DNA of 64,000 nt, taken from positions 1-64,000 of IMG/VR virus record IMGVR_UViG_3300028559_000029; one strand, 5' to 3'. Made by a program: the position numbers and the translations under genes. The stretch comes from a virus. Below, one piece after another: positions 3 through 31,285 of the stretch; position 1 is the stretch's first letter; each line of letters begins with the position of its first letter. The notes beneath the pieces are model-generated. The model did no database searches. It was not told the DNA's origin and saw nothing but the letters and a program-made list of their open reading frames with translations.

Positions 3-359
3 TTTATATTAGGTTCTAATATAACAGCATCACAACCAAATTATACATATGTTAATAATTTAAGTTCACAAAATAGTATTAATGCTAGTATTATAAGTTC
101 TACAAGTGGAAATTCAAATCAATGGAATTTTGCTTATTCAAACCAAACAAATTTTCTTCCTTTAAGTGGCGGATCTATGACTGGTTCATTAACAGTAGTA
201 GGAAATATTTCAGCAACACAAAATTATTTTTCTGGAACTAATAAATCAGTATTTACACCACAAACAACTACAGTCGGTGTTAGTGCAATAAGTAATATTG
301 TTGCTGTATCGGTTTTACCAGTAACACCAGATCCTTCAACATTGTATATTGTGATATAA
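3..359 (+). CDS. Tail fibre or tail-associated structural protein, C-terminal end (partial)
   Basis: The reading frame is already open at the left edge and stops at 357-359, so only the last 118 codons are present. It contains the motif LPLSGGSMTGSLTVVGNISA, which follows the LxLSGGxMTGxLxVxGNIxA pattern that recurs in phage tail-fibre and other trimeric receptor-binding proteins, where it precedes a beta-rich shaft segment. The end is rich in Ser, Thr, Val and Ala, as is usual for fibre tips. Its stop codon overlaps the ATG of the next gene (TAATG), so the two are probably translated together as part of the host-recognition module. The specific T4 equivalent cannot be assigned from this fragment. 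Confidence 0.7.
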   Translation, partial: FILGSNITASQPNYTYVNNLSSQNSINASIISSTSGNSNQWNFAYSNQTNFLPLSGGSMTGSLTVVGNISATQNYFSGTNKSVFTPQTTTVGVSAISNIVAVSVLPVTPDPSTLYIVI

Positions 360-1774
360 TGGAACTTATAAGCGCAACAGATTTACAATTTAATTCTAGA
401 CCAGTTATGGAAGCTTGGTTGGGAAATAACTTGATTTGGGGTAGAGGAGTTATTTGGACTGGTTTAGGACTTGATAATAATTGGAGTAATACCAGCAATT
501 GGTATGAAGCAAAAGTACCTCCAACGTTTTCATCAATTCAATTTACAGGAACAACGAGACTGTCTACTTATAATGACTTTTCTATAGATAGACCAGTTAA
601 TGACATAACATTTAATGCTAGTTCTGGATCATTTCAATTGTCAGGAAATAGATTTATTTTAAGCACTGGAGGAATTACAAACAATTCTGTAAATGCACAA
701 ACAATTAATAATGATATTAAATTGAGTTCGGGAGAAACCTATATAAATTGTAATACAGGAGACATAACATTTAATGGTCTTTTATCAGGTTCAGTTTCAA
801 TTGTTAAAACCGGAAACCGCAAAGCAAATATTAGTGCAGCTAGAACTATATCTACTGGCTCTGTGACCATAAGTGCAGGAACATTACAGTTTGACAATCT
901 TACTACAAATGGAGGAGGAGATATTGTTGGTCCAACTCCAACGATATACAATTTAAGCGGTAATGGAGCATCTTTAAATTTAAATACAAACATCTTCGGT
1001 TCCGGAAACAAAATTTCCTTTGCTGGAAAAACCATCAATTTTAGCTCACTTGGAAATCAAACGGTTGCTCTTACTGGAAACATTCTGTGCAATAACTCTA
1101 CGTTTAAAACAAACGGCGGAGCAAAAAATTATATTACTGGGCCTTTAGCATCCGGAACAAATTACTTTAATGCTCAATTTTCTACAATAACATATAATAT
1201 AGCTGATGGGACAGATGAGGTGGATTTAGAAATTAGTGCTTTTATGTATTTTCAAAAACCCATGAAAACAGGAACGGGTAAATTATCAATCGTTGCTCCT
1301 TATGCTACAAATATAGCTGGTCCGTTAACAATTTCAGCTGGGACATTTGATGTAGGTGGAACATGTAATTTTCAAACAAATTTTAGTAATGGGGATAATA
1401 CGATTAACAATAATGGAACACTTTCTTACTCTTCGAGCGTTAATTCAAATTGTTCTAATCATGCAATCAGCGGAACAGGCAATTTAATAAAGAGCGGAAC
1501 ATCGACAGTGACTCTGAGTGCTGATAGATGTTCTTATATAGGCTCTACTTCAATTCTTAACGGAAGTATCGTAACTACGAAAAACACAGCCACAGCAACA
1601 TTTACTCCAACTACTTTAACTATTAATTTCTCAACTCCTCCTAATATTGGCGATACATTTAGATTTTTTTCTGGTTCGACCATACAATCTTATGCCTCTG
1701 TGTCGCTAATAGGAGCACCAGCAAGAACCGCTAGTTACAATTCCTCGATTTCAACCTTAACAATAGATTCATAA
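359..1774 (+). CDS. Tail-region adhesin with autotransporter-type beta-strand repeats
   Basis: A 471-residue protein, probably virion-associated and surface-binding. Residues around 30-50 carry WTGLGLDNNWSNTSNW, a W-G-...-NWS-...-NW pattern familiar from the start of autotransporter-associated beta-strand repeat proteins of bacteria. Further on there are repeats of the type G-x-I/L-x-K-x-G-x-(x)-T/S-V-x-I/L-S-A-G-T-L/F, for example near residues 140-180, 310-330 and 370-390, suggesting a right-handed parallel beta-helix. Composition is dominated by Asn, Ser, Thr and Gly with almost no charge. No signal peptide or membrane anchor is visible, so secretion like a bacterial autotransporter is not expected. 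It follows a tail-fibre gene with a one-base overlap, so a fibre-tip or receptor-binding role is inferred. Confidence 0.6.
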   Translation: MELISATDLQFNSRPVMEAWLGNNLIWGRGVIWTGLGLDNNWSNTSNWYEAKVPPTFSSIQFTGTTRLSTYNDFSIDRPVNDITFNASSGSFQLSGNRFILSTGGITNNSVNAQTINNDIKLSSGETYINCNTGDITFNGLLSGSVSIVKTGNRKANISAARTISTGSVTISAGTLQFDNLTTNGGGDIVGPTPTIYNLSGNGASLNLNTNIFGSGNKISFAGKTINFSSLGNQTVALTGNILCNNSTFKTNGGAKNYITGPLASGTNYFNAQFSTITYNIADGTDEVDLEISAFMYFQKPMKTGTGKLSIVAPYATNIAGPLTISAGTFDVGGTCNFQTNFSNGDNTINNNGTLSYSSSVNSNCSNHAISGTGNLIKSGTSTVTLSADRCSYIGSTSILNGSIVTTKNTATATFTPTTLTINFSTPPNIGDTFRFFSGSTIQSYASVSLIGAPARTASYNSSISTLTIDS

Positions 1775-1776
1775 TT

Positions 1777-2031
1777 ATGCTAATAGAACCAAATGAACAA
1801 GGATGGTCAACAAGTGACCAAGGACCATGGCAATTAATTTTCAATGATGAATATATTATTAAATTATTTGAAGCTGGATTAGGAACTTCCACCCAAGAAA
1901 AACTTTTTGTGGGTACTAAAGAAGATTGCGAAGCAAAAATATTCGAACTCGGATTGCCACTCGCATGCAGTAATTCGCTTGGAGAAAATTTAGAAGAGAA
2001 TTTAATATATTCTCCTATCCTAGAGGAATAG
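1777..2031 (+). CDS. Small acidic protein of the tail-fibre operon, unknown function
   Basis: An 84-residue protein starting two bases after the stop of the beta-repeat adhesin, on the same strand. It begins with an N-terminal MLIEPNEQGWSTSDQGPWQL and contains two Cys and many Glu. No family is recognised. Small genes directly after phage fibre genes often encode fibre chaperones or tip attachments; here that is only an inference from position. It is the last gene of this rightward group and faces the leftward genes that end at 2126. Confidence 0.45.
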   Translation: MLIEPNEQGWSTSDQGPWQLIFNDEYIIKLFEAGLGTSTQEKLFVGTKEDCEAKIFELGLPLACSNSLGENLEENLIYSPILEE

Positions 2032-2125
2032 CTTTTTAAATATTATTAATTGCTCCTAATCTTTCCTGAGCTTTTAATGGGTATTTAAAAGGCAAACAAA
2101 TTATCATATTCAGCAGTGAATATAA

Positions 2126-2944
2126 TTAGCTAGTATATCCAAAACGTTTTTGATAGTTATAATAAGTTTTATCAATCCAATTACAAATATCTTTACCTAA
2201 AATTTCTTTATAATCTGTATTTAAGGGAATCACTTCATTTCGAATAGTGTGTAGATCACTAGTAAGACCATAAACAGAGTCATCTTCTTTAAGAGACTGC
2301 TCAACGTTTTTAAAATTATGTTGAAATGATTCTAATTCAAGATAATTGTAAATTTTATTGAGTTCTTGTCGAGGATTGTTTGTTAAATCTTCTGCTCTGA
2401 TGTATAAAACCTCTTTATTAATGCCTTCTAGAAAACATTGTTCTAAACGCTCTAGTGCAAGTCCCACTGGGGGAGATGCAAACCATGAATCCACTCTTTT
2501 TGCTGTGTTTGTACCAGACATTTCCGCATGATTTTGAATTGTTTGGTGATTTTCTTGGTTTTTACGATAAATCTTTTCCATGGATGAAATAATACTCTTT
2601 AAGTTTCTTATCATGCATATCATTTTAGGTTTATATGGCATAAATGCCTCAAACCATTTATAATGAATAGTACCACCTCTTGTTTTTATGCAAATATTAG
2701 ATTTTTCTGAATATGAACTTGCATATCCTTCTAAACCACCCCAACAAAACCCTCTCCATGCCTTAATAGCTAAATCTTTATCAATAGCCTTAACTTCTGG
2801 AGAATTTGTAAAATTCATTCTAGCTCCATAGAGATATTCAAGAACTGGATCTGTAGGAGTTGCTGTTATTGTTGGATTTTGATTAAGAATGCATTGAAGA
2901 AGCGTTGACATGCTTCTTGGCATTGAAGAATTGAAAAATATCAT
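2126..2944 (-). CDS. Sulfotransferase-family protein
   Basis: A 272-residue protein of the PAPS-dependent sulfotransferase fold. The N-terminus FFNSSMPRSMSTLLQCILN matches the 5'-phosphosulfate-binding loop (strand, then P/S-R-S-x-S-T-L-L). Around residue 108, MICMIRNLKSIISSMEKIYR matches the 3'-phosphate-binding strand and helix (R-N/D-x3-...-S). Family enzymes move sulfate from PAPS to a hydroxyl of a sugar, peptide or small molecule; the acceptor cannot be read here. It lies three bases after the GT9-like glycosyltransferase gene, and this pairing suggests sulfation of a glycan. It is last in a six-gene leftward unit with a late-type promoter, so expression late in infection is inferred. 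Confidence 0.75.
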   Translation of the reverse strand: MIFFNSSMPRSMSTLLQCILNQNPTITATPTDPVLEYLYGARMNFTNSPEVKAIDKDLAIKAWRGFCWGGLEGYASSYSEKSNICIKTRGGTIHYKWFEAFMPYKPKMICMIRNLKSIISSMEKIYRKNQENHQTIQNHAEMSGTNTAKRVDSWFASPPVGLALERLEQCFLEGINKEVLYIRAEDLTNNPRQELNKIYNYLELESFQHNFKNVEQSLKEDDSVYGLTSDLHTIRNEVIPLNTDYKEILGKDICNWIDKTYYNYQKRFGYTS

Positions 2945-2947
2945 GTA

Positions 2948-3877
2948 TTAAAATATAATAGAGTGATTCATATTAAAAAGCAACTCATTTTTTGAACCTA
3001 AAATAGATTCTATAAACATATTTTTGTCAAATAGTTTATTAATATCGTTATATGGACATTCATGCAGTCTGCCACCTGTCCAATCATCAGATTCTAAGTA
3101 CGAATCTATTTTATGACGAAATAATTCTTCTTTATCTACTACAATATTTGTATGAATTTCATGTCCAAATACTTTTGGGGAGTTTGATATCCAACCAACA
3201 GTAGCATTTTTATTTAAAGCTGCTGCTGCATGTTGAGTAAATGAATCTATACATAAAAATTTGTCTGATAATGCAATATAACAGAACAAATTTCTAAAAT
3301 TATCTGTTATTGGAATGGTATTTTGAATATTTTGTTGATTTTCTCTCTTAATATGAAGTATTTTATAAAATTTATCTTTAATAGAATCAACAATTTCTGC
3401 TGTAAATGATATTGGAAGATCTCTAGACCAAGAATATGGTATTTTTTGATTTTCAGCACCTCCCGAAGATTGAATTGTGAGTATTGGACCTTGCTTATTT
3501 AAAATATTTTGAACAAACATCAACTCTCTTTCAGTTAGAAAGAGTTCTGGTTTAATAGAAATACATGTAATATTGAATATATCACACCAAATTTCTGCTA
3601 AATGTTTTTTTCTATATAAAAGATCTCCAGAATGATACGGTTCCATTCTGAATATTTTAGAATTTTTGTTTTTTATGTAATCATCATAGAAATATGGAAT
3701 ATTTCCAAATTTATATACTCTAAAAACATTAGGATTGTGTAAAAATACCTCTGGATATGAGGTTACAACTATTAATTCATGTTCTGGATATGCAGATTTT
3801 ATAGATTTTACTACAGAAGTTGCGATTATAGACTTTCCACAACCTCCATCAATGTGAAAAATTGAATATTGTTTCAT
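2948..3877 (-). CDS. Glycosyltransferase, family 9 (heptosyltransferase)-like, GT-B fold
   Basis: A 309-residue protein resembling ADP-heptose:LPS heptosyltransferases and related GT9 enzymes. The N-terminal half has the typical opening with a Gly-rich loop (HIDGGCGKSIIATSVVKSIK) and then alternating strands and helices such as ELIVVTSYPEVFLHNPNV. The C-terminal half has the nucleotide-sugar region: ILTIQSSGG near residue 132 and a late segment with CIDSFTQHAAAALNKNATVGW, which corresponds to the GT9 'D-(S/T)-x2-x-H-x-A-A-A-L' motif. It sits between an unknown gene and the sulfotransferase gene, three bases apart. Substrate is unknown. The Gly-Lys-Ser in the first loop looks like a P-loop but is not in a Walker A context. 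Confidence 0.65.
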   Translation of the reverse strand: MKQYSIFHIDGGCGKSIIATSVVKSIKSAYPEHELIVVTSYPEVFLHNPNVFRVYKFGNIPYFYDDYIKNKNSKIFRMEPYHSGDLLYRKKHLAEIWCDIFNITCISIKPELFLTERELMFVQNILNKQGPILTIQSSGGAENQKIPYSWSRDLPISFTAEIVDSIKDKFYKILHIKRENQQNIQNTIPITDNFRNLFCYIALSDKFLCIDSFTQHAAAALNKNATVGWISNSPKVFGHEIHTNIVVDKEELFRHKIDSYLESDDWTGGRLHECPYNDINKLFDKNMFIESILGSKNELLFNMNHSIIF

Positions 3878-3880
3878 ATT

Positions 3881-4360
3881 TTAGTTAAAGTACTTTGAAA
3901 AAAACTCCATATCATCACCATTTGGAATTCCTACTTTTATATTTTTATAATATCCTTCGATATTATTAAATAAAGAATTATTATTAATTTCTTTAAAATA
4001 TTTTGTCTTCTTTTTTATTATATTTTTTACAATATTACCAAATTCATTATGATTTATAAAATATTTAGAATATTCATAAGATAGAGAAGTGTCTTTTTTA
4101 TATATTGTAAATATTTTAATATTTAAATCCTTAAAAATTATAATAAAGGTTTCTAAGAGCTTGTCAAGTTCTTTTTCTAGAAAAAATTTAAAATATTTCT
4201 CTTTCTGAGTAATTTTTTTGTCTTTTAGAAGATCCCATTCTTCAAAATCTCTTATAATATTATTAGCAATAATAGGAAGATATTCGTAAATTGGAAATAT
4301 TATAACTCTTTGAGAGATATAATATATTAAAAAATCTTTAATCTTTAATTTTTCGGACAT
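3881..4360 (-). CDS. Unknown protein, Lys/Ile/Phe-rich
   Basis: A 159-residue protein with no recognised domain. It is rich in Lys, Ile, Phe and Tyr and predicted mainly helical. Its start overlaps the end of the zinc-binding gene upstream by 23 bases and it ends three bases before the GT9-like gene, so it is translated as part of the same leftward operon. Its tail (NIKVGIPNGDDMEFFSKYF) loosely resembles the tail of the GIY-YIG protein encoded two genes upstream (NVRIGTPPKDILNNFTKYT), which might be a shared C-terminal module; the rest of the protein lacks GIY-YIG motifs. Confidence 0.55.
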   Translation of the reverse strand: MSEKLKIKDFLIYYISQRVIIFPIYEYLPIIANNIIRDFEEWDLLKDKKITQKEKYFKFFLEKELDKLLETFIIIFKDLNIKIFTIYKKDTSLSYEYSKYFINHNEFGNIVKNIIKKKTKYFKEINNNSLFNNIEGYYKNIKVGIPNGDDMEFFSKYFN

Positions 4361-26578: not shown

Positions 26579-28267
26579 ATGGAAGTACAACTAATAAGCA
26601 TAACACAACCGTTAATCGAAGGATTAATATCAGCAGAAGATCTAATCAGCTATATCGCTAGGGTTTCCAATCCTAGCAATCAAATGAATACTGAAACTTC
26701 TCCAAAATTGTTGAAGTATTTAATTAATCATAAACATTGGTCTCCTTTTGAACAAGTTTCTTTGACGTTCCAAATTGTCACCTCAAGAGCAATAGCTGCT
26801 CAGATTCTTCGACATAGAAGTTTCTGTTTTCAAGAATTTTGCATAACAGGAGATTCTTTAGTAACCACTATTTTTCCTAAAAATAAAACTGCTCATTATA
26901 TAACAATAAAAAAACTTTTTGAACGTCAAGATTGGAAATCTTATAAAAACATTTTAGTAAGAACTTTTGATGAAAAGAATAAAACGTTTTGCTATTCTAA
27001 AATAAAAGAAGTGTTTAATACTGGAGAAAAACCAGTTTATGAAATAACATTACATGATGGCAAAAAAATAAAATGTACAAAAGAACACAAATTTTATACC
27101 CCAAATGGGTTTGATACATTAGAAAATGTTGTAGGGTTAGATTCTAAATATCATACAATGTCTAAAATTGGTTATATAGGAGTAAATGGTATTCCAGCCC
27201 ATCAATCATATGAATGGTTAGAATCCGTTAAAATGGAATCTATTAAAAATAAAAAGGGATTACCATACATTGCAGAAAAGGCTGGATGTTCCTATCATAC
27301 AATAAGAAAATGGTTAAAAAAACACGAATTATCATTTTCAAAAAAAGAAGTAGCTAGTTATAGAGAAATATGGAATAAAAACAAATTTGGATATAAAACA
27401 TCTCTTGTTTTATCTGAAAGTCATAAAGAAGCTATAAGAAAAGCCAGAAGCGGACTGAATTCAAATTGGTGGAAGGGAGGATGTGATAGGTCTGATAGGG
27501 CTAAAATAGGTGATTGGTGTCAAACTATACGTTTAAAAAAGTTAAAAGAATTTAATTACTCTTGTTCAAAGTGTTCATCTACTAAAAAATTAGAACTTGA
27601 CCATATTATTCCTGTATGGAAAGATAAAGAATTGGCATACAATTATGAAAATATTCAAGTTTTATGTTCATCCTGTCACGACAAAAAACATTCACTTGAT
27701 GGTGATACAAAAATATGGAGACAAAAACATGAGGGGAATAAATTGACTGTAAAATTCACAAAAATAGAAAAAATCGAATTTTTGGGAAATCAACAAACAT
27801 TTGATTTGGAAGTTGAAAACAAAAATCATAATTATGTAGCAAATAAAATTTTAGTTCACAATTCTCAACGTTATTCTACAATTACCGAACTTGAATCTTT
27901 TAACATAAGAAAACAAGCAGATAAAAATAGACAATCCAGTAGTGATATGTTGGATCTTTCCGAAGAGGACTTGGAAAGGTTGAAATCCCACATCGTAGAG
28001 GGGGTTTCTTTATATGAAAGTTTGTTAGAAAAGGGTGCAGCAAGGGAATGTGCAAGAATGTTACTTCCCCTCTGCACTCAGACAAAACTTTATATGACCG
28101 GAAACCTAAGAGGATTTATTCACTATGTAGAATTAAGGACTCAGGAGAATACACAAGAAGAGCATAGAGAAATCGCAAGTGCTATTAAAGAATGTTTGAT
28201 TCAAAACTTTCCAAATACAAGCGAAGCATTAAATTGGAATCTTTCAGTTGACAAAACCGAAAATTAA
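26579..28267 (+). CDS. thyX: Flavin-dependent thymidylate synthase ThyX interrupted in-frame by an intein
   Basis: A 562-residue precursor made of a 221-residue ThyX and a 341-residue intein. ThyX makes dTMP from dUMP using FAD, NADPH and methylene-tetrahydrofolate. The N-extein (residues 1-87) ends in RHRSFCFQEF and the C-extein (429-562) begins SQRYS, so splicing rebuilds the RHRX7S signature with the conserved Ser as the +1 residue. The C-extein has LPLCTQTKLYMTGNLRGFIHYVELR and QEEHREIASA, as usual in ThyX. The unspliced protein should be inactive. It lies between polymerase and an unknown gene of the replication cluster. Confidence 0.93.
   Translation: MEVQLISITQPLIEGLISAEDLISYIARVSNPSNQMNTETSPKLLKYLINHKHWSPFEQVSLTFQIVTSRAIAAQILRHRSFCFQEFCITGDSLVTTIFPKNKTAHYITIKKLFERQDWKSYKNILVRTFDEKNKTFCYSKIKEVFNTGEKPVYEITLHDGKKIKCTKEHKFYTPNGFDTLENVVGLDSKYHTMSKIGYIGVNGIPAHQSYEWLESVKMESIKNKKGLPYIAEKAGCSYHTIRKWLKKHELSFSKKEVASYREIWNKNKFGYKTSLVLSESHKEAIRKARSGLNSNWWKGGCDRSDRAKIGDWCQTIRLKKLKEFNYSCSKCSSTKKLELDHIIPVWKDKELAYNYENIQVLCSSCHDKKHSLDGDTKIWRQKHEGNKLTVKFTKIEKIEFLGNQQTFDLEVENKNHNYVANKILVHNSQRYSTITELESFNIRKQADKNRQSSSDMLDLSEEDLERLKSHIVEGVSLYESLLEKGAARECARMLLPLCTQTKLYMTGNLRGFIHYVELRTQENTQEEHREIASAIKECLIQNFPNTSEALNWNLSVDKTEN
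26840..27862 (+). mobile_element. Intein with embedded HNH homing endonuclease, inserted in ThyX
   Basis: In-frame element of 341 codons. It begins with Cys (CITGDSLV, splicing block A). Block B is GEKPVYEITLHDGKKIKCTKEHKF with the conserved T-x-x-H. It ends TFDLEVENKNHNYVANKILVHN (blocks F and G) followed by Ser. Inside are a helix-turn-helix-like YIAEKAGCSYHTIRKWLKKH, a NUMOD3-like SHKEAIRKARSGLNSNWW, and an HNH nuclease with CSKC, LELDHIIPVWKD and LCSSCHDKKH. All splicing residues appear intact, so the element is probably active for splicing; the intact HNH motif suggests it may still be mobile. Confidence 0.92.
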
Positions 28268-29899: not shown

Positions 29900-31285
29900 A
29901 TGGTAAAAAGCTTGCCCTTAAATGTTGAACTTTTTGAGAAAATGGTGATCTATAATGCTCTTATGGATCCCATTTATCTTGAAAGTATTGTAGAACACGC
30001 AAAACCTTCGTATTTCAAAGATAAGGATATAAAAATAATCTTTGAATCATTGTGTCAGTACTACTCTACATATAATAAAGTTCCAAATATAACCGAATTA
30101 AAGGTTCATTTGGTAGAACAAGAAAAAAGAGATGCACTAAAGAATGTTGCCTTGAGTTTTTCCGGTCTTGATAAAAGTTATGATAGAGATGTTTTATTAA
30201 AAAACACTGAAAGGTTCTTAAAAGAAAAGGCAGTATTGAATACTGTGATCAGAACTTCTGTGGATGTTCAATCCGGAGAAATAGACAGTGCTAAAATCTT
30301 GGCAGATTTTGAAAAAGCTTGTGGAATCTCATTAATTGAAAAAATGGGGTTTGATTATCTAGAATCTGTTGATGAGCATTGCAAAGAACTATTAAAAGTA
30401 TCAAAAACAATTCCTAGTGGGTGGAATTGGTTAGATGAAAAGATTGGTGGAGGGTTTTTATCCGAAGGAAGGGCTATATATGTCTTTTATGGTGTTACTA
30501 ACGTAGGAAAATCGATATTTTTGGGAAATATTGCCTCAAATATCTTAAATCAAGATAACACAGTAGTTTTGATCTCTTTGGAAATGTCAGAACAAGTATA
30601 TGCCAAGCGAATGAGTGCAAACCTCACGCAAATAGCGATGGCAGATCTTACCAACAGCATAGAACCGCTTAAAAAAGAGCTTGGTTCTTACAAAACAAAG
30701 CATAAGAACGCAAAACTTATCATAAAAGAGTTCCCGCCACAAACAGTAACACCTAATCAGATAAAAGCATATCTAGATAGATTGGTAAAAAAAGGAATAA
30801 AACCTGATGTTGTGGTTCTTGATTACTTAAATCTCCTAGCACCTCCAGAAAAGGGAAAGAATTCATACGAATCAGTCAAAGCAATTACAGAGCAGGTGCG
30901 AGCAATGTCTTATCACTTTGAATGTCCTATTATAACCGCTACTCAGGCTAATAGAAGCGCATATGGAGAGGCTAATCCTGGTCTTGAAACGATGAGCGAA
31001 TCCATGGGGCTTTCACATACAGCAGATGCACAGTTTGCAATTTGGTCGGAAGAAGGAGACGTGGATCTCGGACAGATTCACCTCGGAATTAATAAAAATA
31101 GGTTTGGACCTGTTCAATGTCATACCGTATTGGAGTTGGACTATCCTACGTTAACACTTAGAGATCCAAGTGATGTATCTAAAATGTTTATACCAAAGAA
31201 AAAAACCATTCCCGGATCCATTCCAGCAATTCAAAGCATAGCAGATACCTTGAATGCAATTGAAAATATTGGCAGTGATGATTGA
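29900..31285 (+). CDS. 41: Replicative DNA helicase (DnaB/gp41-like)
   Basis: A 461-residue DnaB-type helicase. The N-terminal region (1-150) is the helical primase-interaction domain, then PSGWNWLDEKIGGGF leads to Walker A GVTNVGKS (198-205), ISLEMSEQVYAKRM (catalytic Glu), Walker B VVVLDYLNLLAPP, and TATQANRSA with the sensor Gln. It unwinds DNA ahead of the polymerase as a hexamer. T4 gp41 is 475 residues. Its stop overlaps the start of the DHH gene (TTGA). Confidence 0.93.
   Translation: MVKSLPLNVELFEKMVIYNALMDPIYLESIVEHAKPSYFKDKDIKIIFESLCQYYSTYNKVPNITELKVHLVEQEKRDALKNVALSFSGLDKSYDRDVLLKNTERFLKEKAVLNTVIRTSVDVQSGEIDSAKILADFEKACGISLIEKMGFDYLESVDEHCKELLKVSKTIPSGWNWLDEKIGGGFLSEGRAIYVFYGVTNVGKSIFLGNIASNILNQDNTVVLISLEMSEQVYAKRMSANLTQIAMADLTNSIEPLKKELGSYKTKHKNAKLIIKEFPPQTVTPNQIKAYLDRLVKKGIKPDVVVLDYLNLLAPPEKGKNSYESVKAITEQVRAMSYHFECPIITATQANRSAYGEANPGLETMSESMGLSHTADAQFAIWSEEGDVDLGQIHLGINKNRFGPVQCHTVLELDYPTLTLRDPSDVSKMFIPKKKTIPGSIPAIQSIADTLNAIENIGSDD

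Follow-up and report, generated by a model that had tools for sequence, protein, structure and literature searches.

A passenger-type solenoid protein and its small partner gene behind the tail-fibre gene of an uncultured T4-like phage: a probable exchangeable receptor-binding tip

The DNA considered here, referred to below as the window, comprises positions 1 to 64,000 of a 70,743-base virus record (IMG/VR record IMGVR_UViG_3300028559_000029). Its features are collected in Table 1; other contigs and loci are given by handles of the form L002. The phage is of the T4-like type, as indicated by the T4-type replication genes present in the window. The DNA polymerase shares about 30% identity with those of cyanophages, the GC content of the window is 30.6% and a search of the window for tRNA genes found none. 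A thymidylate synthase ORF of 562 aa at 26579-28267 contains an HNH endonuclease stretch at residues 306-388, an intein-like insertion flanked by two synthase parts (1-87 and about 429-554). The large chain of ribonucleotide reductase, named by eye, is a single ORF of 1316 aa (L002 4082-8032, record positions 64081-68031) with two intein-like insertions, the C..HNC boundaries of which were also placed by eye.

Table 1. Features of the window, with the evidence for each or the part proposed for it.
Feature	Position	Strand	Remarks
Tail-fibre gene, 3' end	3..359	+	5' part cut off by the record start
Whole head gene	359..1774	+	ATG start, 471 aa, open ORF; proposed fibre-tip adhesin
Plug	359..448	+	Head residues 1-30, MELISATDLQFNSRPVMEAWLGNNLIWGRG; start codon shares one base with the fibre stop
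N-domain	449..886	+	Residues 31-176; WTG..NNWS..NW, ..QTINN..; common to bacterial surface proteins
Variable solenoid body	887..1579	+	Residues 177-407; best TIGR02601 stretch 375-405
C-cap	1580..1771	+	Residues 408-471, ..TLTINFSTPPNIGDTFRFFSGSTIQSYASVSLIGAPARTASYNSSISTLTIDS; phage-side
Partner gene	1777..2031	+	84 aa, MLIEPNEQGWS...; begins two bases past the head stop; proposed assembly partner/chaperone
Sulfotransferase	2126-2944	-	PF13469 5.2e-9; context, outside the cassette
Heptosyltransferase-like gene	2948-3877	-	TIGR02201 0.0026, 16.9 bits against a cut-off of 170.2; context, outside the cassette
UvsY			Profile match 5.4e-12
DNA helicase			phrog_16, 5.6e-72
SbcC-like subunit			9.7e-96
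DNA polymerase			4.6e-191

The last 45 residues of the truncated fibre gene (222-356) end in ...IVAVSVLPVTPDPSTLYIVI* and represent a shared fibre tail that we call class 1 (consensus IVAVSxLPxxPxPxTLYIVI), 'class' being a name coined in this analysis. The designation 'tail fibre' is reached via a full-length relative, L066 8322-12311 (1329 aa), for which no match was found in PHROGs. It derives from the counterpart in L010, a 1609-aa gene matching the PHROG 'tail fiber protein' (phrog_17885, 2.2e-34), and from the neighbouring gene in L005 (phrog_9942, 1e-9), further upstream of which there is a portal gene (phrog_213, 7.8e-102). The start codon of the gene that follows, here called the head gene, shares one base with the fibre stop codon in the window, L003, L004, L005 and L010, and the overlap occurs in four of the four class-1 solenoid types; the position next to a fibre gene described in an earlier note on this DNA, made from the letters alone, is therefore borne out. 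The head ORF occurs identically on L003. Both of these assemblies begin by a break inside the fibre gene (window 1 and L003 1), at most 30 bases apart, and the shared break point is probably at a repeat.

The earlier note had read the head gene as an autotransporter-type beta-repeat protein. The opening motif on which that reading was based (W-x-G ... NNWS ... NW) is present at residues 33-48 and the K-x-G ... SAGTL strands are also found in the protein. Against TIGR02601 ('beta strand repeat') the window head scores 22.5 bits, above the curated cut-off of 19.85; against the Pfam PATR family PF12951 it scores 19.6 bits, below the gathering cut-off of 27, so that the expected hit to a repeat family was obtained with the former profile but not with the latter. 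Taken alone, the window protein is thus a degenerate member of PATR, and the repeat can be considered real, but worn in this copy; the pattern [ST]G..[LIV].K.G picks out only two repeat signatures. TIGR02601 matches all 18 members of the head family at E<=0.01, and the PF12951 gathering cut-off is reached by relatives (L005 41.8, L040 69.9, L022 48.2 and L049 90.4 bits). The last of these (L049 3157-6999), a 1280-aa protein with six PATR stretches on a phage contig of 173,760 bases, is the most repeat-rich phage head seen. Serine, threonine, asparagine and glycine make up about half of the window head (glycine 10.4%). As a control for composition, a profile was built from 14 bacterial domains alone, with zero phage sequences; it matches head residues 32-175 at E 2.7e-35 and residues 320-402 at 6e-5, whereas the highest-scoring of 2000 composition-preserving shuffles reached 2.5 bits. 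The heads of the window, L010, L004 and L005 have the 30-residue start, the N-domain and the C-terminus in common and differ in the middle, and their lengths (385-630 aa) vary mostly because of the solenoid body.

In a type V autotransporter the C-terminus is occupied by a barrel; in the window head, this place is taken by the C-cap, and no outer-membrane barrel family was found in the protein at E<=10 in Pfam or NCBIfam. The N-terminus (MELISATDLQFNSRPVMEAWLGNN), as judged by eye, has no hydrophobic run. Since the barrel is absent, the protein is a passenger-like head: it belongs to the TIGR02601 repeat family without being an autotransporter.

A model of the window head from the single sequence was poor (pLDDT 43) and was discarded in favour of an alignment-based model (18 aligned sequences; pLDDT 74.2, pTM 0.73). 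In the latter the head is predicted to be an all-beta solenoid, which agrees with the beta-helix anticipated in the earlier note; confidence is highest at residues 81-160 and 371-471, and lowest in the plug region (pLDDT about 50) and in parts of the middle. Foldseek gave no match for this model in the PDB or BFVD at E<=0.001, the 'Autotransporter adhesin' of Agrobacterium phage Atu_ph07 in BFVD being found at E 1.8. When the comparison was made by VIA-align, confined to Foldseek's own 65 candidates, autotransporter passengers came out best, namely VacA (Z 14.5, rmsd 4.8, 345 residues) and antigen 43 (Z 14.2, rmsd 4.5, 281 residues), with tailspikes below them at Z about 12. The family sequence profile also matches solved passengers (8e7f, 6.1e-9; fusolisin 8axg, 2.2e-8; IcsA 5ke1, 4.5e-4); a gp38 chain, sought by sequence with the same profile, was not found at E<=0.1.

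A first scan of genomes with the window protein as query found no relative. A second scan gave six loci, of which the two best are from Verrucomicrobiota (L012 and L013, Rariglobus lineage), with 43% over about 143 residues. Three phyla were then sampled at similar size, the centre genome being counted in each: matches to the N-domain profile occur in 36 of 115 Verrucomicrobiota genomes, with full-length matches and a best score of 105 bits, as compared with 2/118 in Bacteroidota (best 36 bits, repeats only) and 5/120 in Pseudomonadota (best 41 bits). These relatives support the bacterial origin of the repeat part that the earlier note had supposed. In a tree of 23 N-domain rows (without L049), the phage sequences cluster together among the bacterial ones (94/94, under the starred level), a pattern compatible with one capture from a source resembling Verrucomicrobiota; because the bacterial rows were chosen for their likeness to the phage profile, this grouping stops short of proving a single capture. 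It had also been suggested that the repeat might hint at the lineage of the host. This was rejected: the N-domain is Verrucomicrobiota-rich, yet it is one mobile domain, and solenoid heads of this class are found in phages that differ in fibre and gene context, so that the head can travel. With the window head, L040, L037, L049 and two partner proteins as queries, no member of the family was found in 50,697 GenBank phage records at the sensitivity of these searches. The head of L004 matches one Salmonella contig that carries an autotransporter annotation, and its fibre tail matches Limnohabitans phage DC31 at E 1. A literature search found nothing that joins the autotransporter-associated beta strand repeat with phage, or beta strand repeat with phage tail fiber; for the passenger-associated-transport-repeat with phage it found only work on Brucella, and for Verrucomicrobia with autotransporter and phage tail fiber only work on Shiga-toxin E. 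coli.

Behind each of four heads (window, L010, L004 and L005) there is a small gene of 83-89 aa. A scan with this gene found relatives on 29 viral contigs, on 26 of which a complete or partial solenoid head is directly upstream; of the remainder, L033 stops at this point, and L025 and L050 contain another kind of head together with a remnant. In all 24 loci measured, head and partner are separated by -4, +1 or +2 nt. The gene thus shows the chaperone trait of being a small gene directly behind its client. Comparison with known chaperones gave no match in Pfam or PDB sequences, and PHROGs returned nothing at E<=0.01 (best 0.019, to one of six members, unnamed). The partner profile matched 0/115 Verrucomicrobiota genomes, its positive control being 4/4 phage records, some outside the training rows; similarly, the C-cap profile (A12) matched 0/115 of these genomes and 3/3 phage records, two of them outside the training. 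By contrast, the N-domain profile finds its 36 matches among the same genomes. The N-domain is therefore present in bacteria from which the C-cap and partner are absent, and a bacterial-type body lies between phage-side parts. The earlier note had missed that the plug, the C-cap and the partner gene belong to the phage side, and also that the head is exchanged as a block.

A scan with the class-1 fibre tail found it on 11 viral contigs, and what follows it is variable. There is a solenoid head on four (L003, which is the window's near-copy, L004, L005 and L010), and on two (L050 and L025) a head that we call propeller-like, a name coined here for the motif YSDDGxxW, as BNR scores only 0.064. 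Three near-identical contigs (L062-L064) have a 190-aa head, for which no Pfam match was found, and then a leucine-rich-repeat gene; the other two (L061 and L065) have an 80-aa protein and a leucine-rich-repeat gene. A plug profile made from four solenoid plugs was run against the N-termini of 881 ORFs. Beyond the set on which it was trained (window, L003, L004, L005 and L010), it matched L050 (1.4e-12) and then L025 (0.014); the match to L065 (0.91) is not significant and L061 is absent from the results, both of these being behind a class-1 tail. The matches in L050, L025 and L065 all sit behind the class-1 fibre tail. When L050 and L025 were added to the profile, the 190-aa heads emerged at 1e-7. 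Tails and plugs go together by class: class-1 tail is paired with class-1 plug, a class-2 tail (..QITQAGYNA...TLYIIVG; TLYIII in L037) precedes a class-2 plug in 9/9 loci, and a class-3 tail goes with a class-3 plug in 2/2, although these counts are inflated by relatedness, several contigs being near-duplicates. The class-2 plug profile found no class-1 head among the 881 ORFs at E<=1, and a docking-peptide scan gave nothing beyond the contigs already known. It should be noted that, of the 23 solenoid loci in which the upstream side could be read, 8 lack a recognised fibre tail before the head (L022/L032, L028, L029, L034, L041, L042, L044 and L049). In five of these (L028, L029, L034, L041 and L042), the head and partner are found amid non-structural-looking genes, with another N-terminus (MVKIYGKSQIF..) and no adjoining fibre; the head may therefore enter the virion otherwise, or act differently, in such loci.

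The window and L065, which is part of a phage record of 111,556 bases (G355), form a natural pair in which the exchange of a head can be read base by base. They align at 3-359 (84%), fail to align over the head and partner, and resume at 2038, with 92% identity over 2109-4125 and synteny up to window position 31165. Between colinear flanks, L065 replaces exactly the head-plus-partner block with leucine-rich-repeat genes, that is, an 80-aa protein, a 453-aa leucine-rich-repeat protein (LRR_4 5.6e-28) and a small gene with a weak match to the partner profile (0.011; L061 gives 3e-5 and L062-L064 7e-5). The two polymerases are 69% identical and the phages are not close overall, so that the 92% stretch may itself be a recent transfer. 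L050 and L025 bear the reverse trace of such an exchange. In L050, 38 residues of the partner gene are left behind the propeller-like head (1.8e-16), and L025 3217-3465 is a vestigial ORF, again behind a propeller-like head, in which the start of a solenoid N-domain is fused to the end of a partner; this fusion is a scar of head replacement. The swap of unlike proteins at one spot suggests an exchangeable receptor-binding tip.

The sulfotransferase and heptosyltransferase-like genes of the window (the latter with no match in PDB sequences) are also found as a pair behind the cassette in L044 and L065, and may modify virion or host glycans. A weaker possibility is that they modify the tip, by analogy with the BAHT enzymes, which are reported to modify autotransporter passengers (PMC4358343). 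Glycosylation of the solenoid by the pair was retained as no more than a lead, since the same pair lies behind the leucine-rich-repeat head of L065 and the heptosyltransferase match is far below its cut-off.

We consider it probable that the product of gene 359-1774 is an exchangeable tail-fibre head that binds a receptor and is accompanied by a small assembly partner. That the heads are tail genes is favoured by PHROG 15824 ('tail fiber protein proximal subunit'), which matches 7 of the 18; the location in the virion, the docking, the binding of a receptor and the role of the partner are what we infer from the arrangement described above. The fibre protein would be made and its C-terminal tail (..LPVTPDPSTLYIVI) would form the far end of the fibre. 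The head would be made from the overlapping start codon, its 30-residue plug docking on the fibre end, and the solenoid of bacterial adhesin-type repeats, closed by the C-cap, would project and touch a cell-surface sugar or protein. The 84-aa partner may aid the folding or assembly of the head, or remain as a cap. Head and partner together would be the unit of recombination, such that whole heads of unrelated fold take each other's place in the interval bounded by the conserved fibre tail and the next gene downstream. A more general proposal, to which we would give somewhat less than an even chance, is that the fibres of uncultured phages end in a common socket, with three or more connector classes in which tail and plug are matched, and that this socket receives heads of unrelated fold (passenger solenoids, propellers and leucine-rich repeats) in the form of a head-plus-partner cassette that crosses phage lineages.

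Right-handed beta-helix tailspikes and pectate and inulin lyases are among the structural neighbours of the head (Z about 9-13), and the solenoid could be imagined as a tailspike-like polysaccharide depolymerase that binds and cuts capsule. We regard this as unlikely, given that the relatives by sequence are adhesin and protease passengers, that no lyase or hydrolase family was matched in Pfam, NCBIfam or PHROGs, and that body length and sequence differ between near relatives in a way that a catalytic groove would not easily allow. Slightly less likely still is a shaft or decoration segment with no receptor role, in which the solenoid merely lengthens or shields the fibre. The varying length of the middle, in proteins of 385 to 630 aa, would be in keeping with such a segment, as would the words 'proximal subunit' in the name of PHROG 15824; however, the gene comes after the conserved end of the fibre and is exchanged for leucine-rich-repeat or propeller-like heads, and a recognition surface fits this better.

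The five contigs on which head and partner lie amid non-structural-looking genes, with no fibre beside them, raise the question of whether the protein is part of the virion at all. Passenger repeats are surface proteins in bacteria, and a phage-coded surface or secreted protein on the infected cell might serve, for example, in superinfection exclusion or cell clumping. This reading ranks lower again, as in the window the head and fibre genes share one base, no signal peptide is visible and no barrel family is matched. Finally, the first base of the record falls within the fibre gene and the break in L003 is 30 bases away, as might be seen in an assembly chimera or with bacterial contamination. 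We give this next to no weight: it is refuted by the finding that a solenoid head immediately precedes the partner on 26 of 29 viral contigs, which come from many metagenomes, together with the absence of the C-cap and partner from the 115 Verrucomicrobiota genomes.

In uncultured phages, no genes are harder to annotate than those for receptor-binding parts. The fixed fibre tail, plug and partner mark the position of the head whatever its fold, and hence offer a sequence handle for tail-tip adhesins in metagenomes. The putative tip described here would also be a case in which bacterial surface-adhesin repeats are reused by the predators of bacteria.

Among known systems, the tips of T-even fibres (T2, S16 and PP01) are an obvious comparison. 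There, gp38 is a separate protein whose gene follows immediately upon that of the distal fibre; it occupies the tip and determines specificity, and gp37-gp38 pairs are exchangeable (PMC9603124, PMC12892980), while gp38 of PP01 and S16 is made of poly-glycine II helices (PMC12892980). The window head is likewise coded directly after a fibre gene, with the one-base overlap, but it is predicted to be a bacterial-repeat solenoid, its alternatives are leucine-rich-repeat or propeller-like heads, and no sequence relation to gp38 was found. Fibre-plus-chaperone modules provide a second likeness. In the modules of Alteromonas phages V22 and A5, and in those with Mu Tfa and T4 gp38, the gene for a recognition protein is followed by a small gene, and distant phages have them in common through recombination; gp27 of V22 is of 21.8 kDa with DUF4376 homologues (PMC7289586, PMC10579305). 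The window cassette also consists of a putative recognition protein and a small gene after it, although the partner here is of 84 aa and matches no known family. With the TIGR02601/PATR passengers (VacA, IcsA and fusolisin) and the repeat proteins of Verrucomicrobiota, the head has repeat sequence and solenoid fold in common. Unlike the autotransporter passengers, it is without a barrel and has a plug, a C-cap and a partner; the Verrucomicrobiota proteins differ in that the 115 sampled genomes are without the cap and partner. The cassette resembles known modular tail-tip adhesins in arrangement; no sequence in common with them was detected, and the fold predicted for its head is another than that of gp38 of PP01 and S16.
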